DNA of 64,000 bases from Acidimicrobiia bacterium (GTDB lineage: Bacteria > Actinomycetota > Acidimicrobiia > Spongiisociales > JAHEDJ01), in the NCBI GenBank assembly GCA_035471805.1, contig DATIPS010000023.1, forward strand, positions 1-64,000. Direction: 5' to 3'. Below are positions 2,500-63,544 of the stretch, in pieces. How positions within the stretch are numbered: position 1 is the first letter of the stretch; each line of letters begins with the position of its first letter. The position numbers and the translations under genes were made by a program. Under the pieces are notes generated by a model that saw nothing but the letters and a program-made list of their open reading frames with translations, was not told the origin of the DNA and did no database searches.

Positions 2500-3261
2500 C
2501 TACAGCGAACCAAAACGGTCGAACGGCCAGAGACGGACAAAGGCCCTGCCGACGATCGAGTCCTGTGGGATCGAACCGAACTTGCGACTGTCCTGGCTGG
2601 AGCTCCGATTGTCTCCCATGACGAACACCATTTCATCCGGAATCGTCTGAGGACCGAAGTCCTGCATTATCACGCCCGGCGACAGGTACGGTTCGTCGAT
2701 CGGCACTCCGTCTATGAAGACCCTGTTGTCTTTGATCTCAATGGTCTCGCCGGGAAGGGCGATGATGCGCTTGATGAGATCGTCCGGAACGAGAGCGGTC
2801 TGGATCCCCAGGGATTCCTTCACGGCCGTCCAGGCGGCTTCCACGAAGGACTGGTCTTTCGATGCGGCCGCAAACGGCGAGTCGAAGACAACGATGTCTC
2901 CCCGATCAGGTTCGCCGAACGTGTAGCTCAGCTTGTTGACCATCACCCGGTCGTCCACTTCCAGAGTAGGAATCATCGATCCCGATGGAATGAAGAAAGC
3001 CTGGACGAAGAAGGTCTTGATCAGAACGGCGACGACGAGCGCCACCAGGATCAGAATGGGAAGCTCGATCAGGAACGAAACGAATCCGCCCCGCTTTTTG
3101 TGTTTGGGGCGAACCCTGCGCACCGGCTCCTGATTCTCGGGCCGATCGCCGGCTTCCGGACTGTTGCGAAATGGACCGATATCGAACGGATCCGCTCCGG
3201 CCCAGCCATCATCGCCATCGCCGCCGGGGAATCCAGCTGCGTCAGCCACGTCTGGGTCCAT
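2500..3261 (-). CDS. lepB: Signal peptidase I
   Basis: Type I signal peptidase, 253 residues, which cleaves Sec/Tat signal peptides at the outer face of the membrane. It has a Gly/Asp-rich cytoplasmic N terminus (residues 1-55), one membrane helix (about 62-84), the IPSGSMIPTL box with catalytic Ser95, and KRIIALPGE with catalytic Lys164. The MGDNR box with SRKFG follows near the C terminus. All family motifs are intact. It lies between rplS and DUF2469, the standard actinobacterial context. Confidence 0.95.
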   Translation of the reverse strand: MDPDVADAAGFPGGDGDDGWAGADPFDIGPFRNSPEAGDRPENQEPVRRVRPKHKKRGGFVSFLIELPILILVALVVAVLIKTFFVQAFFIPSGSMIPTLEVDDRVMVNKLSYTFGEPDRGDIVVFDSPFAAASKDQSFVEAAWTAVKESLGIQTALVPDDLIKRIIALPGETIEIKDNRVFIDGVPIDEPYLSPGVIMQDFGPQTIPDEMVFVMGDNRSSSQDSRKFGSIPQDSIVGRAFVRLWPFDRFGSL

Positions 3262-3288
3262 ACTCCGGCCGACACCGGATCGAGACCA

Positions 3289-3630
3289 CTAACGCTGCTC
3301 TTTGATTCGCGCAGACTTGCCGACCCGGTCCCTCAGGTAATAGAGCTTGGCCCGTCGCACATCGCCGCGACGCACGACCTCGATCTTCTGGATGATCGGA
3401 GCATGAACCGGAAACACCCGCTCGACACCGACGCCGAAGCTCATCTTTCGAACGGTGAAAGTACTTCGGAGGCCCCCGCCATCTCTGGCGATGGCAACAC
3501 CTTCGAATGCCTGCACGCGCTCGCGGCCACCCTCGACCACGCGGACGTGCACGCGGACGGTATCGCCGGCTTTGAACTCGGGGATGTCGTCGCGTATGTA
3601 CGCGCTCTCGACCTGGTCAAGCATGTTCAT
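3289..3630 (-). CDS. rplS: 50S ribosomal protein L19
   Basis: L19 lies at the 30S-50S interface. The 113-residue protein contains the family segments [16 protein letters not shown] and [19 protein letters not shown] and ends [17 protein letters not shown] 3630 is preceded by AAGGAG at a spacing of six bases, which sets the start inside a longer open frame. The 79-base leader between trmD and rplS has no overlapping gene and may carry leader regulation. Confidence 0.97.
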
Positions 3631-3709
3631 TGGAAACTCCTTGAGACGCGCCGGAGAAGGCCGGCGGCTAGAGATTGTATACCGTTGGGACCGTCTAGTC
3701 CAAGATGGA

Positions 3710-4372
3710 TCAGTCGAGTAGATCGGGTCTCCGCCGGCGCGTCCGCTCGAGCCTTTGATCGGCTCTCCACTCTTCGATACGGCCATGGTCGCCGGACAAC
3801 AGCACCTCCGGCACCTTCCACCCGCGATAATCCGCCGGCCGCGTGTAATGGGGCTCCGCCAGGAGGGAGTCCCGAAACGACTCGCCGGCGATCGACTGCT
3901 CGTTTCCCAGCACTCCGGGAATCAGCCTTCCGATACCTTCGATCACCGTCAGCGCGGCGGCCTCTCCACCCGGCAGAACGAAATCACCGACCGAGACCTC
4001 TTCGTCGATGAAATGCTCGACTACCCGCTCGTCCACTCCCTCATACCGGCCGCACACGAGGGTCAGATGGTCGAGAGTCGCGAAACGATCCAGCATCTCC
4101 TGATCGAGGGGCTTCCCGGCCGGGGTCATGAGCACCCGCACGGTATCGGACAACGGCTCGAGCGCCTTCGCCAACGGTTCGATCATCATCACCATGCCGG
4201 CCCCACCCCCGTAGGGGGCGTCATCCACTTGACGATGAAAACCCGTGGCGAAATCACGCAGGTCGACCGTCTCAATCTCGAGGTAACCCGCTTCAATTGC
4301 CCGGCCGACGACGCCGGCGTTCAACGGGCTCGAAAAATATCCTGGAAAGATGGTTATGACAGTGATCTTCAC
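3710..4372 (-). CDS. trmD: tRNA (guanine-N1)-methyltransferase
   Basis: TrmD methylates G37 of tRNAs with a G at position 36, using S-adenosylmethionine, and prevents frameshifting. The trefoil-knot SPOUT segments [21 protein letters not shown] and [14 protein letters not shown] are intact. The start is GTG 4372, giving 220 residues beginning [13 protein letters not shown], somewhat short for the family because of a compact C-terminal domain. Upstream open codons in the frame are antisense to the next gene. In most bacteria rimM is directly upstream; here it is almost 10 kb away. Confidence 0.95.
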
Positions 4373-4445: not shown

Positions 4446-6404
4446 GTGGCTGACACAACGAACTCAAGCGCAGACCCGTGGGGCTTGCCAGAAAACGACT
4501 CGATATCGGTTCCTAGTCCGGATTCGGTCGACCATGAGGCGGTATCTGCACCGATCGAACCGGTCGAACCCGCTGAAGAATCACTCGAGATATCGGAGCC
4601 GGCCACCGGCGATTTCGGTTTCGAGTCGGTCGGTGAAGAACCGGCCGAAGGTTCCCTGCCCGACGAGGAAGCCGACCCGACGCCTCCGTCCAAACCTGAA
4701 TCGCGCGGGCCTCTCTCTCAAGTTCTCGCCGCCTCCGGACTTTTCGGTGGATACCCGCTCCCACCTGCGGCCGAATCAACGGATGAGGAAGAGACCGGAG
4801 AAGCCGGGCAGATACCCGAGCCGGTCGAAGAGAGCCTCGACACGTTCACTCTCGAAGCAGCGGCGGAGGACGATGCGACCGAACCGCCCGGTCTCACCGA
4901 ACCTACGAGCGGCGCGGCGCTCGGCGTCGGGGCCACCGATGCGGATCTACCTCCCGAACCGCCGCCGTGGATGGTCATCGAGTCGACTCCAGCCGTACAA
5001 GACGCAGTCACCGAAGAACTGCACGAAGCGGCGGTGGAAGAAGTCGCCACAAACGGAATCGAAGCGGCCGTCGATGAGGCTGCCGCGGCGTTTGCCGAAG
5101 TCACTCTCCCGGCGGACGCAGACGTCGAAACGCCGCTCGAAGAATTGTCCGAACCGGTCGAAATCGCCGAAACGACCGCCCCGGATGCCGAGTTCGAGTC
5201 TCTTGTCGCCGAACTGGCCGACACGGCCCTCGACATTGCCGGGGACGCAGGTAGCAGTCCGGCAGACGGAGGTTTCACAATCGATCGCGACGACACCCCT
5301 TCGGTCTACAGAGAACTCGAGGGTCTGGCCACGCCGGAGCCGGTTGCCGATATCCCGCCGGTCGATGAGGCCACCGTCTCGTTCGAGGAGATCGCCGAAG
5401 AGGATTTCGCCTTCTCGGCGGGAGAGACCGCCGATGACTACCAGGCCGAGGCCGCCGGTGAGATCGAACCTGCCGGCGAGCCGGCGGCGGCCCCCGCCGA
5501 GTGGGGCGTCTTCGAGTTCTCCGATGAGCCATCCGAGCCCGACGCTCCGGTCTTCGGCGTCACCTTCGGAAGGGACGGCGATCCGGAACCTGCACCGGAA
5601 CTAGTCGATGAACCTGAGCTAGTCGATGAGCCCTCCGACGAAAGCGAGGAGGATCACGCCCAGGTCTTCCCCGAGCCGGGAGCAGAGTTTCCCGGCGATG
5701 CAACTCTCGAACCGGAGGTCGGAGCGGCGGAAGTTACCGATCCCCTGCCGGACACGCCGTCGGGAATCGACGAGATGGTCTACGAATCCGCCGACGATTC
5801 ACCGGAAGAGCCTCTGATCAGCTTCGAACCCGCCCTCTCGGTCGTCGACGAAACCCCTGAGCACGAGGAACCCATCTTGCCGGAACCGGCAGATACCGAA
5901 GCGCTGATCGATGTCCTCGCGGAGTCGGAGGAGCCGGTCACTTCGCAACCGTCGGAGACCGCCCCAGCCCCATTCGATGCGACGCCGGACGCCGGCGGTT
6001 CGGCTCCGGAGGAGACGCCTGTCGAAACGGCGCCCGAACCGGAGCCCGATGCGGCACCAGCCATCGAGTGGGGCTCACGCTGGCAGGAGTCCGCCCAGGG
6101 ATGGGTCGAGGATGATCAGGGTCGCAGCACGTGGCGGCCCATCGTCACAACCAGTCCGCTTCTGTCTGAATGGCAGATCGACACCTACCTGGGCGTGGTG
6201 TCGGCGGACGTCGTGCTCGGGTCGGGGCCGGTCGAGTTCGAAATGACTGCGGGGCGTACCAGCGCCATGCGCTCGATGGTGGATGAAGCGATGTTGCGCG
6301 GTGCCCACGCAATCGTCGGTGTGTCCACGACCGTGGCACCCGTCGGACGGGCAACGGTACTGACGGCCACCGGGACCGCCGTGACCCTCAAAGCTCAGGA
6401 CTGA
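4446..6404 (+). CDS. Long acidic low-complexity protein with C-terminal YbjQ-like domain
   Basis: A 652-residue protein with GTG start 4446, preceded by GGAGGG. Residues 1 to about 540 are low complexity, dominated by Glu, Pro, Ala, Asp and Val, with an ELVDEP tandem duplication near 5602-5632 and no signal peptide or membrane helix. Residues about 541-560 carry a Trp-rich linker (WGSRWQESAQGWVEDD). Residues 565-652 match the YbjQ/DUF74 family: TTSPLL..YLGVVSADVV, an Arg-Thr-Ser motif and GAHAIVGVSTT. YbjQ proteins are usually about 105 residues and form pentamers of unclear function. The acidic part is probably disordered and its role is unknown. Confidence 0.75.
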   Translation: MADTTNSSADPWGLPENDSISVPSPDSVDHEAVSAPIEPVEPAEESLEISEPATGDFGFESVGEEPAEGSLPDEEADPTPPSKPESRGPLSQVLAASGLFGGYPLPPAAESTDEEETGEAGQIPEPVEESLDTFTLEAAAEDDATEPPGLTEPTSGAALGVGATDADLPPEPPPWMVIESTPAVQDAVTEELHEAAVEEVATNGIEAAVDEAAAAFAEVTLPADADVETPLEELSEPVEIAETTAPDAEFESLVAELADTALDIAGDAGSSPADGGFTIDRDDTPSVYRELEGLATPEPVADIPPVDEATVSFEEIAEEDFAFSAGETADDYQAEAAGEIEPAGEPAAAPAEWGVFEFSDEPSEPDAPVFGVTFGRDGDPEPAPELVDEPELVDEPSDESEEDHAQVFPEPGAEFPGDATLEPEVGAAEVTDPLPDTPSGIDEMVYESADDSPEEPLISFEPALSVVDETPEHEEPILPEPADTEALIDVLAESEEPVTSQPSETAPAPFDATPDAGGSAPEETPVETAPEPEPDAAPAIEWGSRWQESAQGWVEDDQGRSTWRPIVTTSPLLSEWQIDTYLGVVSADVVLGSGPVEFEMTAGRTSAMRSMVDEAMLRGAHAIVGVSTTVAPVGRATVLTATGTAVTLKAQD

Positions 6405-57918: not shown

Positions 57919-58521
57919 TCAGATCTCGTCGAGGAGCTTCTGCTTCTTGGCCGCGAACTCCTCGTCGGTCAGGATGCCGTCCTTGTGAAGACGAGCGAGT
58001 GCCTCCAGTTGCCCGGCCGCTCCTCCTCCTCTGCCGCCTTCGAGCTCGACCGTGCGCTTTTCCCGGAGTTGGTAGATCACAGACTGGACGTCCTCGGGGC
58101 GCGGGATGTCGGTGAAACGGCTCTGCCCGTGCTCTCCCGCCGACTCGATCAAGAGATCTCCCGACCGGACCAGCCGCTCCAGAATCGACTGGGAGAAGGC
58201 AACGTCGTTGATCACCTCGAGCGGGATCTCCTTTCCGCGACGGGCGAGAACTCCGGATCGGGCTATCAAGCGCTCGGTCGTGATGATGTAGCGGGTGAAC
58301 CACCAATCCAGGTAACGCGGCAGCGCAATGACGAGCCAGACGAGTGCCAGCGCGGCGATGGACATCCACCTGGCGACGTCCTCGAGCAGGACGGCGACGG
58401 CCACCTCGGCGGCAATCGCGACGACCGTCACAACAGCAGGCACGATTATTCGCTGCCAGTGCGGTCGGAACTCGACTTGAACCGTTTCCCCGGGACTCAG
58501 CAAGCGTTCTGGATATGGCAT
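57919..58521 (-). CDS. PH-like (bPH2/DUF304) and SHOCT-domain membrane protein
   Basis: A 200-residue protein. Two membrane helices (about 27-47 and 52-70) are followed by a bacterial PH-like domain (YIITTERLIARSGVLARRGKEIPLEVINDVAF, RSGDLLIES). A C-terminal SHOCT helix follows: LEALARLHKDGILTDEEFAAKKQKLLDEI. SHOCT domains mediate oligomerisation. ATG 58521 is chosen because TACTAT lies exactly six bases before it, giving a leaderless mRNA. The longer frame starts inside the 53-base repeat of the adjacent RNA locus and is not used. Confidence 0.88.
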   Translation of the reverse strand: MPYPERLLSPGETVQVEFRPHWQRIIVPAVVTVVAIAAEVAVAVLLEDVARWMSIAALALVWLVIALPRYLDWWFTRYIITTERLIARSGVLARRGKEIPLEVINDVAFSQSILERLVRSGDLLIESAGEHGQSRFTDIPRPEDVQSVIYQLREKRTVELEGGRGGGAAGQLEALARLHKDGILTDEEFAAKKQKLLDEI

Positions 58522-58527
58522 GGGCAC

Positions 58528-58533
58528 ATAGTA
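58528..58533 (-). promoter_or_regulatory. -10 box of the bPH2/SHOCT gene
   Basis: TACTAT on the minus strand lies six bases before ATG 58521. It gives the gene its own leaderless promoter, downstream of the last terminator of the RNA locus. Confidence 0.55.
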
Positions 58534-58562
58534 CGCGAGTTGCGAGTCGCGAGCCGCCTCCG

Positions 58563-58615
58563 CGGACGCGGAAAACCCCGAGAAAGCTCTGACCGAAGTC
58601 ATCACCCTCTCGGGG
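58563..58615 (-). terminator. 53-base repeat, copy 2: terminator-like hairpin
   Basis: On the minus strand CCCCGAGA and TCTCGGGG form an 8-bp stem followed by TTTT. Inside is a smaller hairpin TGAC-TTCG-GTCA with a UUCG tetraloop. The 53 bases are identical to 59185-59237. It ends the structured region 42 bases before the bPH2 start. Confidence 0.65.
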
Positions 58616-59184
58616 TTCCCGAACCCCGCTCCGGTTCGAGTCCCGAAGGACCCAGCGCCGAGGCGAGTTCCGAAGCAGTGTTTCCACTACTCCAGACCCA
58701 AAGCCTTTCAGCTCCAGGTGCCCTCCACCAGGCCCGAAGGTCCGGTGTCGAACATCTCCTCTTTCGAGGAGCCTCTCGTTTCGGATCGACACCACCCGTT
58801 TCCAGGAAGTGCCTCTCGTTTCCGAGAGGGTGGCTTCCCGTTTCCGAGAAACCCGGTCGCCTCCGAAGAGGAAACCAACACTTCAGCCGGTCGCCCGCTC
58901 GACCCGAAGGTCTCCCGGAACGGGCGATCCTTACGAACCGCCTCTCCCTTTCAGGAGTCCACCGAAGTGGTTGTCCCTTCCAAAACCGCTCGGTTTCCCA
59001 AACGGACCCTTCCGGGACGATGCCGTCTCGGGGTCTCCCCCAAACCGGCAGAACGGGAACTTATCTGCCGTCCCCGCCCAGCGCAAGCCAGGAACGAACC
59101 TAGATTTCGCGACCCTAAAAATAGAATTCGCGGGCCACCCGATCCGCGAACCGGTAGGCAGCAGCATCAGCGACTCACCTCCCC

Positions 59185-59237
59185 CGGACGCGGAAAACCC
59201 CGAGAAAGCTCTGACCGAAGTCATCACCCTCTCGGGG
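59185..59237 (-). terminator. 53-base repeat, copy 1: terminator-like hairpin
   Basis: Identical to copy 2 at 58563-58615: 8-bp stem CCCCGAGA/TCTCGGGG, internal UUCG hairpin, then TTTT on the minus strand. It would end a short RNA of about 185 bases starting near 59370. In that RNA GAAACTGC (59351-59358) and GCAGTTTC (59281-59288), read on the minus strand, close a long-range 8-bp helix. Confidence 0.65.
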
Positions 59238-59376
59238 CTACCGGTCCCGGGAACTCCTGGCCCGAAGGCTCGGTCTTCCCGAAACTGCCTTCACCGGCGT
59301 TGCCGCCGATGCCGGCCCGAAGAGTCCTCTCGGTCTCTTCAGTTCGCTGTGCAGTTTCCTGCGCTGCGATAACTTG

Positions 59377-59406
59377 AACATAACGCCCTGCGTCGGACGG
59401 CGTCAA
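59377..59406 (-). promoter_or_regulatory. Sigma70-like promoter of the RNA locus
   Basis: On the minus strand TTGACG (59401-59406) and TATGTT (59377-59382) are separated by 18 bases, close to the consensus of the housekeeping sigma factor. Transcription would start near 59370, directly at the beginning of the hairpin-rich region. Confidence 0.6.
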
Positions 59407-59408
59407 GG

Positions 59409-59420
59409 CACAGCGCTGTG
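59409..59420. promoter_or_regulatory. 12-bp palindrome
   Basis: CACAGCGCTGTG is a perfect palindrome just upstream of the -35 box of the RNA promoter and upstream of the direct repeats preceding the nuclease gene. It may be a protein-binding site. Confidence 0.35.
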
Positions 59421-59423
59421 TTC

Positions 59424-59454
59424 TTTTCGCGACCTAACTGGAGTTTTCGCGACC
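59424..59454 (+). repeat. Two TTTTCGCGACC direct repeats, 20 bp apart
   Basis: TTTTCGCGACC occurs at 59424-59434 and 59444-59454, two helical turns apart, 42-72 bases before the start of the RecB-family nuclease gene. A third, shorter copy (TTTCGCGACC) lies at 59105-59114 inside the RNA locus. The spacing and position suggest an activator or repressor binding cooperatively. Confidence 0.5.
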
Positions 59455-60538: not shown

Positions 60539-63500
60539 GTGGAGATGTCTGAGTGGCGGATTGGTCCTGAGGATTGGCCGGAAGCCGTCGCACGGGTCGG
60601 CGGTTCGCAGATAGTCGTGGCGGGACCGGGGACCGGCAAGACAGAGTTTCTCGTGCGCCGCTTCCTGGAACTCACCGAGCTGCACTCGGTGCCGGCGGAG
60701 CGTATCGCGATGCTGACCTTCTCCCGGCGAGCTGCCTCAGATCTCAAGGACCGGGTACTCAAGCGGTCCGGCGGCTCGACCACCGAAGTCCCTGCCTCGA
60801 CATTCCACTCTCTCGCCTTCCGACTCCTCGAGCGACACGGTCGGGATTGCTTTGGCTGGGAAGAGATGCCTTCGCTCCTGACGGGCCCGGAACAGGTCGC
60901 CCTCGTCTCAGAACTACTCGCTTCGGAAGAACCCGATCGATGGCCGGTTCTGTTTCGCCCGCTCCTTGGTTCGGTTTCTTTCGCAGAAGAGGTCGCCGAC
61001 TTCATCATGCGAAGTCGCGAATATCTGCTCGGTGATGCAGAGCTTCGCTCACTGGCCGGCCGAAGGGACGACTGGCGGGCGCTTCCCGACTTCCTCGAAC
61101 GATACGCAAAGGAGTTGACCAGAAGGGGAAGGCTCGACTACGGATCACTCCAGATGCTCGCCGTCGAGCTCCTTCAGGATCCCGGTGTCCGGGAGCAGGT
61201 GGCAGAGCAGTTCCACTACCTGATCGTCGACGAATACCAGGACACCACGGCCGCCCAGTCCGAGATGCTGGCCAGGTTGACGGAAGGCCACCGCAACATC
61301 ACCGTGGCAGCAGACCCCTATCAATCGGTCTACTCGTTTCGGGGTGCCGAGCTTCACAACGTGGCAGATTTTCCGGGACGGTTCACCAACCCGGACGGAT
61401 CACCGGCAGCGAGACTGGTCCTGACCACCTCCTTCCGTGTCCCTCCTGAAATCCTCTCGGCTGCCGTGCGGCTGACTGCCGGGGGCGATCTGCCCGGTGG
61501 GACGGGTCCGGTGGTCCCAGCCTCGCATTCCGGCCGGGTCGAGGTCCGCAGGTTCCGGCAGCAATCAGAGGAAGCCGAATGGATCGCCGGTGAAATCGAA
61601 CGCCTCCATATCGAGGAAGGGCTCCCGATCAGGACCATCGCCGTATTGGTGAGGTCCAAGCGCAGATTCCTTCCGGAACTGTCGCGGGCACTGGAGCGCC
61701 GATCGATCCCACATGATCTTCCGGATGCCCGGCTCGTCGATCATCCCGGCGTGAGGCTCATCTTCGATATCGTCCTTGCCGCGCAGGCCGACGACACAGC
61801 CGGAGGTAGCCTCGACGCCGACCGGGTCATCAGACGCCTGCTTCTCGGACCGCTATTCGGTGTTCCGCTGAGCATCGAGCGAGAGGCATACCGGCATCGC
61901 CTCCGTTCCGGCCGGCCCTGGCCGGCAATCCTCGAGGAATCGGTTCCGGGAGCCGATGCACTGGCCGCGTTGCTGTCCGACTCCTCCTGGGCGACTTCGG
62001 GCTCGGCCGCCGCCGGGTTCTGGGTTCTCTGGAACACGCTCCCGCAGTTCGATGCGCTTGTCCACGACCAGGACCGGGCGGATTATCGTTCGGCGTGGTC
62101 GGCGTTTGCCCAGGTCCTCAGCCGCCAGGAGGCTCGCGATCCGCATCTCACGCTCGCCGGCTACGTCAACCTGGCCGAGCGGGAAGACTTCGAGGCGACT
62201 CCACTGCTCCGCTACTCCGGCGACGCGAGCGACCGGTTGACCCTGACGACGCTCCACCAGTCGAAAGGCCTCAGTTTCGAAGTCGTCTTCATCGCCGACG
62301 CAGTTGAGGGTGTCATGCCCGACCTGCGAAGGCAGCGCTCCATTCTCCAGACACGGCTGCTTTCTCCTCACCACGATCCAGACCCGCTCGCGGCACGGCA
62401 GTTCAGATTGCAGGAGGAAATGCGGCTCGCATATACGGCAATGACCAGGGCAACCCGCCGGGTCGTCTGGACGGCGACGGACGCTGGAAGTGAAGACCCG
62501 CGCCGGAGGCCCAGCCGATTCCTTTCGGCGATCGGTATCGAACCGATGGATGCGGCGGCTGAGCGGGAACCCCCGATGGACTCGAACGAAAGAGCCCCGG
62601 TCACCCCGGCGGAGGCCGAAGCCCACCTCCGGCGTATGCTGGTGGACCCCGCAACCGCACCCTCGCGCCGGTTGGCGGCGGCAGCAACCCTCCATCGTCG
62701 GCCCAATCCGGCGATACGGCCGGTGGACCAGCTGGCCGGAATGAGGCCGCGCGGGGTCGATTCCGGGATCATCGACTCCGGCCTGACCCTCTCCCCCAGC
62801 CAGGCAGACACCTACGCGACCTGTCCGAGGCAGTATGCGCTCGGACGGCGGCTCGATGCTGCCGGAGACGCCGGACCGTACGCTTCCTTCGGACAGCTCA
62901 TCCACGATGTTCTCGAACGAGCTGAACGCGCGGCGGTCGACGCGGGCGCTGCCCACGGCTCCGTCGATGTTGCGCTCGGGCATCTCCGAGAGCTCATCTC
63001 GTCGACCGACTTCGGACCGGCTGCCCGCCGGGAGGCCTGGCGCAAACGAGCCGAGCGCCTGCTGGTCGGAATGTATGAAGCGTGGATCAGGCCCGGTTCG
63101 GTGCCCGTCCTTTTGGAACACCCGCTCGAGGCAACCATCGACGGTATCCGATGGAGAGGCAGGGCAGACCGAATCGAACTAATACCTTCGGGCGGAGTAC
63201 GCATCGTCGACTACAAGACAACAGCTTCACCCAAACCGGCTGCCGAAGCTGCGGTATCCATCCAACTGGCGTTCTACTTGTTCGCTGCAAAGGGCGACCC
63301 TGCGGTCCGAGAACACGGCGAGCCGACCGAAGCCGAGTTCTGGTATCCGCTCGCCAATCGGAAACAACGGTGGTCGGCCCTGGATACGGCCCAGATGACC
63401 GGTGTCGTGGAAAAGATGGCCGAGATCGGCCGATCGATCGCCGCCGAGAACTGGACGCCCACTGTGAGCGCCGCCTGCCCGGGATGTCCGGTTCGGACCG

Positions 63501-63544
63501 TTTGCCCCGAATGGCCGGAAGGACGGGAGTCGTTCACGCGATGA
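60539..63544 (+). CDS. AdnA-like UvrD-family helicase-nuclease
   Basis: A 1001-residue protein joining a superfamily 1 helicase to a C-terminal RecB-type nuclease, the plan of AdnA in the mycobacterial AdnAB end-resection complex. Helicase motifs are VVAGPGTGKTEFLVRR (about 28-35), MLTFSRRAASDLKDRV, YLIVDEYQDTT (about 228), VAADPYQSVYSFRGA and TLHQSKGLSFEVVFI. The nuclease has IRIVDYKTTAS (about 888), and Cys in YATCPRQYAL and CPGCPVRTVCPEW form the Fe-S site. The start is GTG 60539 or ATG 60545. It overlaps the next helicase gene by ATGA. AdnB-like or PcrA-like identity of the partner cannot be settled. Confidence 0.88.
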   Translation: MEMSEWRIGPEDWPEAVARVGGSQIVVAGPGTGKTEFLVRRFLELTELHSVPAERIAMLTFSRRAASDLKDRVLKRSGGSTTEVPASTFHSLAFRLLERHGRDCFGWEEMPSLLTGPEQVALVSELLASEEPDRWPVLFRPLLGSVSFAEEVADFIMRSREYLLGDAELRSLAGRRDDWRALPDFLERYAKELTRRGRLDYGSLQMLAVELLQDPGVREQVAEQFHYLIVDEYQDTTAAQSEMLARLTEGHRNITVAADPYQSVYSFRGAELHNVADFPGRFTNPDGSPAARLVLTTSFRVPPEILSAAVRLTAGGDLPGGTGPVVPASHSGRVEVRRFRQQSEEAEWIAGEIERLHIEEGLPIRTIAVLVRSKRRFLPELSRALERRSIPHDLPDARLVDHPGVRLIFDIVLAAQADDTAGGSLDADRVIRRLLLGPLFGVPLSIEREAYRHRLRSGRPWPAILEESVPGADALAALLSDSSWATSGSAAAGFWVLWNTLPQFDALVHDQDRADYRSAWSAFAQVLSRQEARDPHLTLAGYVNLAEREDFEATPLLRYSGDASDRLTLTTLHQSKGLSFEVVFIADAVEGVMPDLRRQRSILQTRLLSPHHDPDPLAARQFRLQEEMRLAYTAMTRATRRVVWTATDAGSEDPRRRPSRFLSAIGIEPMDAAAEREPPMDSNERAPVTPAEAEAHLRRMLVDPATAPSRRLAAAATLHRRPNPAIRPVDQLAGMRPRGVDSGIIDSGLTLSPSQADTYATCPRQYALGRRLDAAGDAGPYASFGQLIHDVLERAERAAVDAGAAHGSVDVALGHLRELISSTDFGPAARREAWRKRAERLLVGMYEAWIRPGSVPVLLEHPLEATIDGIRWRGRADRIELIPSGGVRIVDYKTTASPKPAAEAAVSIQLAFYLFAAKGDPAVREHGEPTEAEFWYPLANRKQRWSALDTAQMTGVVEKMAEIGRSIAAENWTPTVSAACPGCPVRTVCPEWPEGRESFTR

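Follow-up and report, generated by a model that had tools for sequence, protein, structure and literature searches.

The minus strand of the window (the whole stretch of 64,000 nucleotides that was analysed) contains a protein-free locus, which is best explained as two side-by-side members of an undescribed family of structured RNAs, each having a separate promoter and intrinsic terminator and acting by binding protein; to this reading in full we would give about an even chance. Its basis is far firmer. Comparison of sequences makes it almost certain that such a family exists, that it is encoded on the minus strand, that its members share a core of four hairpins (H1–H4), preceded by a direct-repeat operator and an unvarying promoter, and that it is inherited at one chromosomal position across one order. 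The minus strand was taken as the transcribed one because the base pairing and the tetraloops sit on that strand.

Organization of the locus

Judging by its signals, the locus comprises two genes, each with an operator, a promoter and a terminator of its own, and not one read-through RNA (Table 1); the promoter, start and termination of both genes are predictions. The preliminary description had placed a TTGACG-N18-TATGTT promoter at one end of the locus and stems followed by TTTT at 59185 and 58563. The promoter is present at 59406–59377, and both stems are real, being two copies of one 67-nt terminator repeat that stands at both ends of the locus, 622 bp apart, with 93% identity. An RNA of 185 nt with read-through to 808 nt had also been proposed. 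The gene of about 185 nt was retained, but the second RNA (~490 nt) appears to be an independent gene; since an operator and a promoter lie near 59133–59058, read-through is not needed to explain it. Similarly, the suggested long-range 8-bp helix (59281–59288 with 59351–59358) pairs perfectly in the window; in both congeners, however, GGAGUCUU stands in place of its 3′ arm, so the helix is not conserved.

RNA gene 1 contains H1–H4 in order with the operator-promoter upstream, and gene 2 carries the core as its 3′ part. With the covariance model R2, which describes the four hairpins, gene 1 scored 129.9 bits, the window sequence being part of the training set of this model. The extra hairpin of gene 1 was found in the genus of the window; the remaining 11 short units in alignment A4 lack it.

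Table 1. Predicted features of the RNA locus and genes flanking it (window coordinates).
Feature	Position	Strand	Description
UvrD helicase-nuclease gene	60539–63544		After the PD-(D/E)XK nuclease gene
PD-(D/E)XK (RecB-like) nuclease gene, PF12705	59496..60284	plus	Divergent syntenic neighbour; Pfam
Operator, RNA gene 1	59425..59452	minus	Direct repeat TCGCGAAA-N12-TCGCGAAA
Promoter 1	59377..59406	minus	TTGACG (59406–59401), N18, TATGTT (59382–59377)
RNA gene 1	59185..59376	minus	~185 nt (59370–59185); four-hairpin core and one extra hairpin
Transcription start, RNA gene 1	~59370	minus	Predicted
H1 of gene 1	59345..59368	minus	GNRA cap (GGAAAC)
H2 of gene 1	59317..59342	minus	Cap CGAGAG (GAGA tetraloop); compensatory double changes in 8 of 11 pairs
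Extra hairpin of gene 1	59287..59316	minus	GCAA/GAAA loop; alignment A4
H3 of gene 1	59248..59281	minus	UUCG cap; conserved internal loop GGRAGACC/GGAGU
H4 of gene 1	59185..59247	minus	Terminator-like hairpin CCCCGAGAGGGU..CUUUCUCGGGGUUUU; near-invariant across the order
Operator, RNA gene 2	59105..59133	minus	CCGCGAAT-N13-TCGCGAAA; first repeat degenerate
Promoter 2	59058..59086	minus	TTGCGC (59086–59081), N17, TAAGTT (59063–59058)
RNA gene 2	58563..59056	minus	~490 nt (59051–58563); longer hairpin chain
Transcription start, RNA gene 2	~59051	minus	Predicted
Core-like 3′ part of RNA 2	58563..58725	minus	Four-hairpin model R2, 88.4 bits; segment outside the training set
H4 of gene 2	58563..58625	minus	Terminator-like hairpin; R1, 75.4 bits
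bPH_2 and SHOCT gene (PH)	57919..58521	minus	Downstream syntenic neighbour; Pfam

The promoter of every unit has the form TCGCGAAA-N12/13-TCGCGAAA-N18-TTGnnn-N17/18-TAnnnT. The direct repeat, [CT]CGCGAA[AGT], recurs at a spacing of 20 or 21 bp in 43 units; in 40 of these the TTG begins exactly 26 nt past the first base of the second repeat, TAnnnT stands 17 or 18 nt past the −35 hexamer in 37 of 41, and the architecture of promoter 1 was seen again in about 40 relatives. From this regular spacing of repeat and promoter, we infer a regulated promoter. The exact operator repeat pattern gave a single match in the genome assembly of the window, at RNA gene 1. At several other loci of g34 and f6 genomes (L174–L185 and L191), TCGCGAAA direct repeats are followed by GGGCCC(C/A)YCCCCCGCCACCACC and apparently belong to another dispersed element. 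Since these matches lead into that element and not into an RNA-gene promoter, no wider regulon can be read from them.

Two further observations concern the intergenic sequence. An array of about 95 bp made of the 7-bp unit GCGACTC lies between RNA units in the congener L021, upstream of its third unit (~5900–6000), and a remnant of such an array adjoins gene 2 of the window (58530–58560). In another congener, L022, a transporter-like stretch (~2930–4250; MFS-like, judged by eye) is inserted between its two RNA units, so this intergenic region tolerates insertions.

Folding and covariation of the RNAs

The minus strand of the region 58540–59420 folds at −486 kcal/mol compared with −388 ± 7 kcal/mol for shuffled sequences (z = −13.2; 0 of 20 shuffles), and the z-score of the plus strand is −3.2. 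The wealth of hairpins and the strand bias of their loops noticed in the preliminary description were borne out by counting: there are 18 perfect Watson–Crick stems (at least 4 bp, 4-nt loop) in the locus against 4.3 ± 2.1 in shuffles (maximum 13), and, read on the minus strand, 12 of them have GNRA or UNCG loops, compared with none read on the plus strand and an average of 0.4 (maximum 2) in shuffles. Over 43 units, the RNA strand had 126 such loops and its complement 5, and shuffles gave about 7. The loop types included CUUCGG (39), GGAAAC (15), GGAGAC (15) and GGCAAC (13).

The short form of the RNA is about 165 nt long and consists of the four hairpins in fixed order, namely H1 with a GNRA loop, H2 mostly with CGAGAG, H3 with a UUCG-type loop and H4 as the terminator. 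The internal loop of H3 is invariant among the short forms aligned. In 14 core sequences from several families, 94.8% of cells are paired compared with 84.9% in shuffles, which leave relatedness in, and at most 58% in slid controls. Double changes affect 25 pairs and 80 cells compared with 14.9 and 26.0 in shuffles, and 0 of 500 shuffles reach these values. In five copies of gene 2 of the window, 97.8% of 152 pairs are kept and 8 pairs are compensatory, against 2.9. These counts should be read with the composition of the alignments in mind, A4 and A2 being small and A3 having been collected with a sequence pattern. Outside the training set, RNAs like unit 1 scored 86–116 bits with R2 (L041, 116; L127, 111; L057, 102; L112 and L085, 101 each). 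The hairpin sequences differ between families and the pairing is retained.

H4 follows a different pattern. In 84 copies, gathered via a BLAST seed and patterns, it showed 127 double-change cells compared with 56 in shuffles (0 of 500), and it covaries at its ends and tip only. Among 145 hits of its covariance model, some of which are antisense readings of the same near-palindromic hairpin, an A is opposite a C in 75 and a G opposite a U (G25.U53) in 136; the retention of these positions indicates that the sequence is kept beyond what pairing needs. This invariance may partly reflect the terminator role and the way in which the copies were collected; nonetheless, the H4 sequence is kept in covariance-model hits of other families. 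A K-turn in the internal loop of H4 (GAUGAC/GUCAGA in the window) was considered and rejected, as it is absent from most copies and the helix is continuous, with no 3-nt bulge.

The statement that the locus encodes no convincing protein was also upheld. Long ORFs overlap it on both strands, yet indels in congeners break their frame, and every reading frame is interrupted in at least one homologue of unit 1.

In minimum free energy (MFE) folds of 14 homologues, from which alone unpaired runs were taken, the longest such run is 4–7 nt. Together with the invariance of paired and internal-loop positions, this scarcity of single-stranded sequence favours RNAs that bind protein over RNAs that pair with other RNAs, and we regard protein binding as a plausible mode of action, at slightly under an even chance. 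The principal alternative is a trans-acting sRNA that pairs with target mRNAs and has its hairpins for stability only. The size, the own promoter, the strong terminator, the tandem copies and the operator are all typical of such sRNAs. However, no conserved single-stranded seed was seen in the alignments or the MFE folds, the loops are mostly GNRA or UNCG tetraloops, and the hairpins diverge in sequence between families while keeping their pairing, so that an sRNA of this type seems unlikely, although pairing with a target RNA could occur through a loop or after partial melting of a stem.

Distribution, synteny and autonomy of the RNA genes

The region of the locus is single-copy in the genome of the window. 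BLAST found matches in 56 of 99 relatives. R1, the covariance model of the end hairpin, matched 148 of 395 genomes of the class Acidimicrobiia, 117 of them from the same order, in which 20 listed genomes had no match; the 31 matching genomes outside the order gave mostly weak hits and belong mainly to family f23. The order carrying the RNA family was taken to be UBA5794, in which the family ZC4RG35 has been placed (PMC12008989). Homologues are known from no fewer than 117 of the roughly 137 UBA5794 genomes sampled. In a sample of the phylum, the R2 matches listed include 7 genomes of the order, three f23 genomes and two others at threshold level (E-values of 6e-4 and 9e-4, which are rough, as are all covariance-model E-values here), and the sampled rest of the phylum Actinomycetota yielded no family members beyond weak look-alikes. 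In GTDB genomes, an exact pattern was found on 72 contigs, nearly all of them with the label Acidimicrobiia or Actinomycetota. A search of IMG/VR with an exact pattern gave no match to the RNA family, phage and plasmid records had none either, and a phage, plasmid or viral origin was rejected for want of a match in such records.

Nearly all homologues stand between a gene for a RecB-like nuclease (recB) and one for a bacterial PH-domain protein. In all 37 loci in which both neighbours were detected, these two genes are divergent and flank the RNA, which mostly forms two units. Genus g34 has kept recB and has no RNA at the locus, which on this comparison is a real loss; the only congener with no match (G003), on the other hand, is explained by an assembly that lacks the recB locus. 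Three adjacent hairpins of gene 2 are missing from the congeners L021 and L023. Some members of family f23, of the same class (L194, L196–L201 and L203), carry a different hairpin-chain RNA of about 300 nt, likewise with no Rfam match. It has a conserved 5′ part (CUGGCACAGU..CUCGUAGUUCACGUAG), an R1-like terminator and DnaA-box-like sequences (TGTGGAAAA / GTGGATAAC) upstream, and it may be homologous to the RNA of the window.

The arrangement of the units varies. Both face recB in L209, they lie on both strands in L210, and tandem units were found in L208 (~283 bp apart) and L021. In genome G090, a block of 221 bp comprising operator, promoter, RNA and terminator is copied at two unrelated sites, right after stop codons; these copies (L235, ~3304–3510; L236, 3216–3436) are 94% identical, complete minimal RNA genes next to unrelated genes. 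Such ectopic and inverted copies indicate that the element is an autonomous RNA gene.

The same arrangements bear on the idea that the locus acts in cis on the PH-domain gene, as its 5′ leader or attenuator. As expected of such a leader, the last terminator in most loci is co-oriented with PH and stops just short of its start codon. However, each unit comes with a separate promoter and terminator, and the PH gene of the window has its own TACTAT 6 nt ahead of the ATG (58519–58533, minus strand), from which it is probably leaderless and a unit of its own. We consider a PH leader very improbable; as leaders of PH or of recB, the units were rejected on the basis of their orientation and ectopic copies.

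The chance is comparably small that the family has already been described under another name, whether as a terminator family, a large ornate RNA, a 6S-like RNA or a published RNA with no Rfam entry. No publication on it was found in the open-licence literature, a coverage that gives this possibility some room. Against it, the whole window has no match in Rfam 15 at the gathering threshold; 13 of 14 related loci have none either, and the remaining one, L194, has a tRNA only. With E-values of up to 5 allowed, the best match of the locus was Gammaretro_CES (E = 0.75, chance level), and L027 had none. An Rfam search and a test for covariation among homologues had been named in the preliminary description as checks on the claim that the minus strand encodes a structured RNA not described before. 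Both agree with that claim, the covariation exceeding shuffled and slid controls, and no codon-like conservation was seen. The family is new by Rfam, and its broad kind, orphan structured bacterial RNAs, is already known.

A hairpin element acting as DNA (a recombination site, or a replication or mobile hairpin repeat) could account for duplicated, inverted and ectopic whole units beside genes of DNA-repair nucleases, but it is highly improbable given that folding and GNRA/UNCG loops favour one strand, that the G25.U53 pair is retained, and that a promoter and a terminator stand at fixed ends.

Proposed mechanism and comparison with known systems

In the proposed mechanism, a transcription factor would bind the direct-repeat operator and switch the RNAs on or off. 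The RNAs, nearly all double-stranded with GNRA and UUCG caps, would then bind one or more proteins as sequestering or scaffold RNAs, and the long forms, having more hairpins, would possibly offer more binding sites. Candidate recognition sites are the parts that are invariant in sequence, namely the H3 internal loop and H4. The mixture of GNRA loops over the 43 units (GAAA, GAGA, GCAA and GCGA) argues against one loop-reading protein. The 5′ arm of H4, CCC-GAGA-GGG, is a repeat of the H2-type GNRA hairpin and may form such a hairpin by itself while the 3′ arm is still to be synthesized. A more specific and speculative version, which we hold to be doubtful, is that one dedicated regulator acting through the TCGCGAAA operator drives a cluster of hairpin-chain RNAs throughout the order, and that H3, together with an H4 that has two states, is where a lineage-specific protein binds them. 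In this version, H4 would be the CCC-GAGA-GGG hairpin in the nascent RNA and the terminator helix in the finished one, and the chains would grow and shrink by gain and loss of tetraloop hairpins.

Since nearly the whole order keeps the locus at one place, with a rigid promoter and strong covariation, it is very likely important to the cells. The family provides ready covariance models (R1 and R2) for metatranscriptome searches and a case of hairpins gained and lost like modules. It also points to a putative RNA-binding protein and a putative transcription factor in an uncultured, widespread group. If the dedicated-regulator version were true, this would be a kind of RNA regulator for which no counterpart has been described.

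Among known systems, CsrB/RsmZ-type RNAs are protein-sequestering chains of stable hairpins, variable in number, with their own promoter and terminator and little single-stranded sequence; CsrA recognises multiple GGA motifs in the hairpin loops of these sponges. The RNAs of the window share with them the hairpin chain, its variable number of hairpins, the scarcity of single-stranded sequence and the own promoter and terminator. However, they have no repeated GGA loop motif of the kind read by CsrA, their caps over 43 units are UNCG/GNRA tetraloops and not ANGGA loops, and there is no Rfam-level relationship.

GOLLD, ROOL and OLE are large, ornate, tetraloop-rich bacterial RNAs whose role in the cell is not established (PMC12286853). 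The likeness lies in the elaborate, tetraloop-rich structure and in the longer forms of several hundred nucleotides. In contrast, the window family has no Rfam match to them and is a linear hairpin chain with a 165-nt core, in which no conserved junction or pseudoknot was seen; it also has chromosomal synteny in place of a phage or mobile context. STAXI and other motifs are repeated hairpins with UUCG loops near DNA-manipulation genes (PMC2864571), a feature common to the window family. Unlike STAXI, to which it has no Rfam match, each of its units is bounded by its own promoter and terminator and contains four different hairpins in a set order. Finally, H4 resembles ordinary intrinsic terminators in that it closes a unit as a GC-rich stem-loop with U residues after it, but it differs from them in its order-wide sequence conservation, its retained A.C mismatch and the three covarying hairpins ahead of it.
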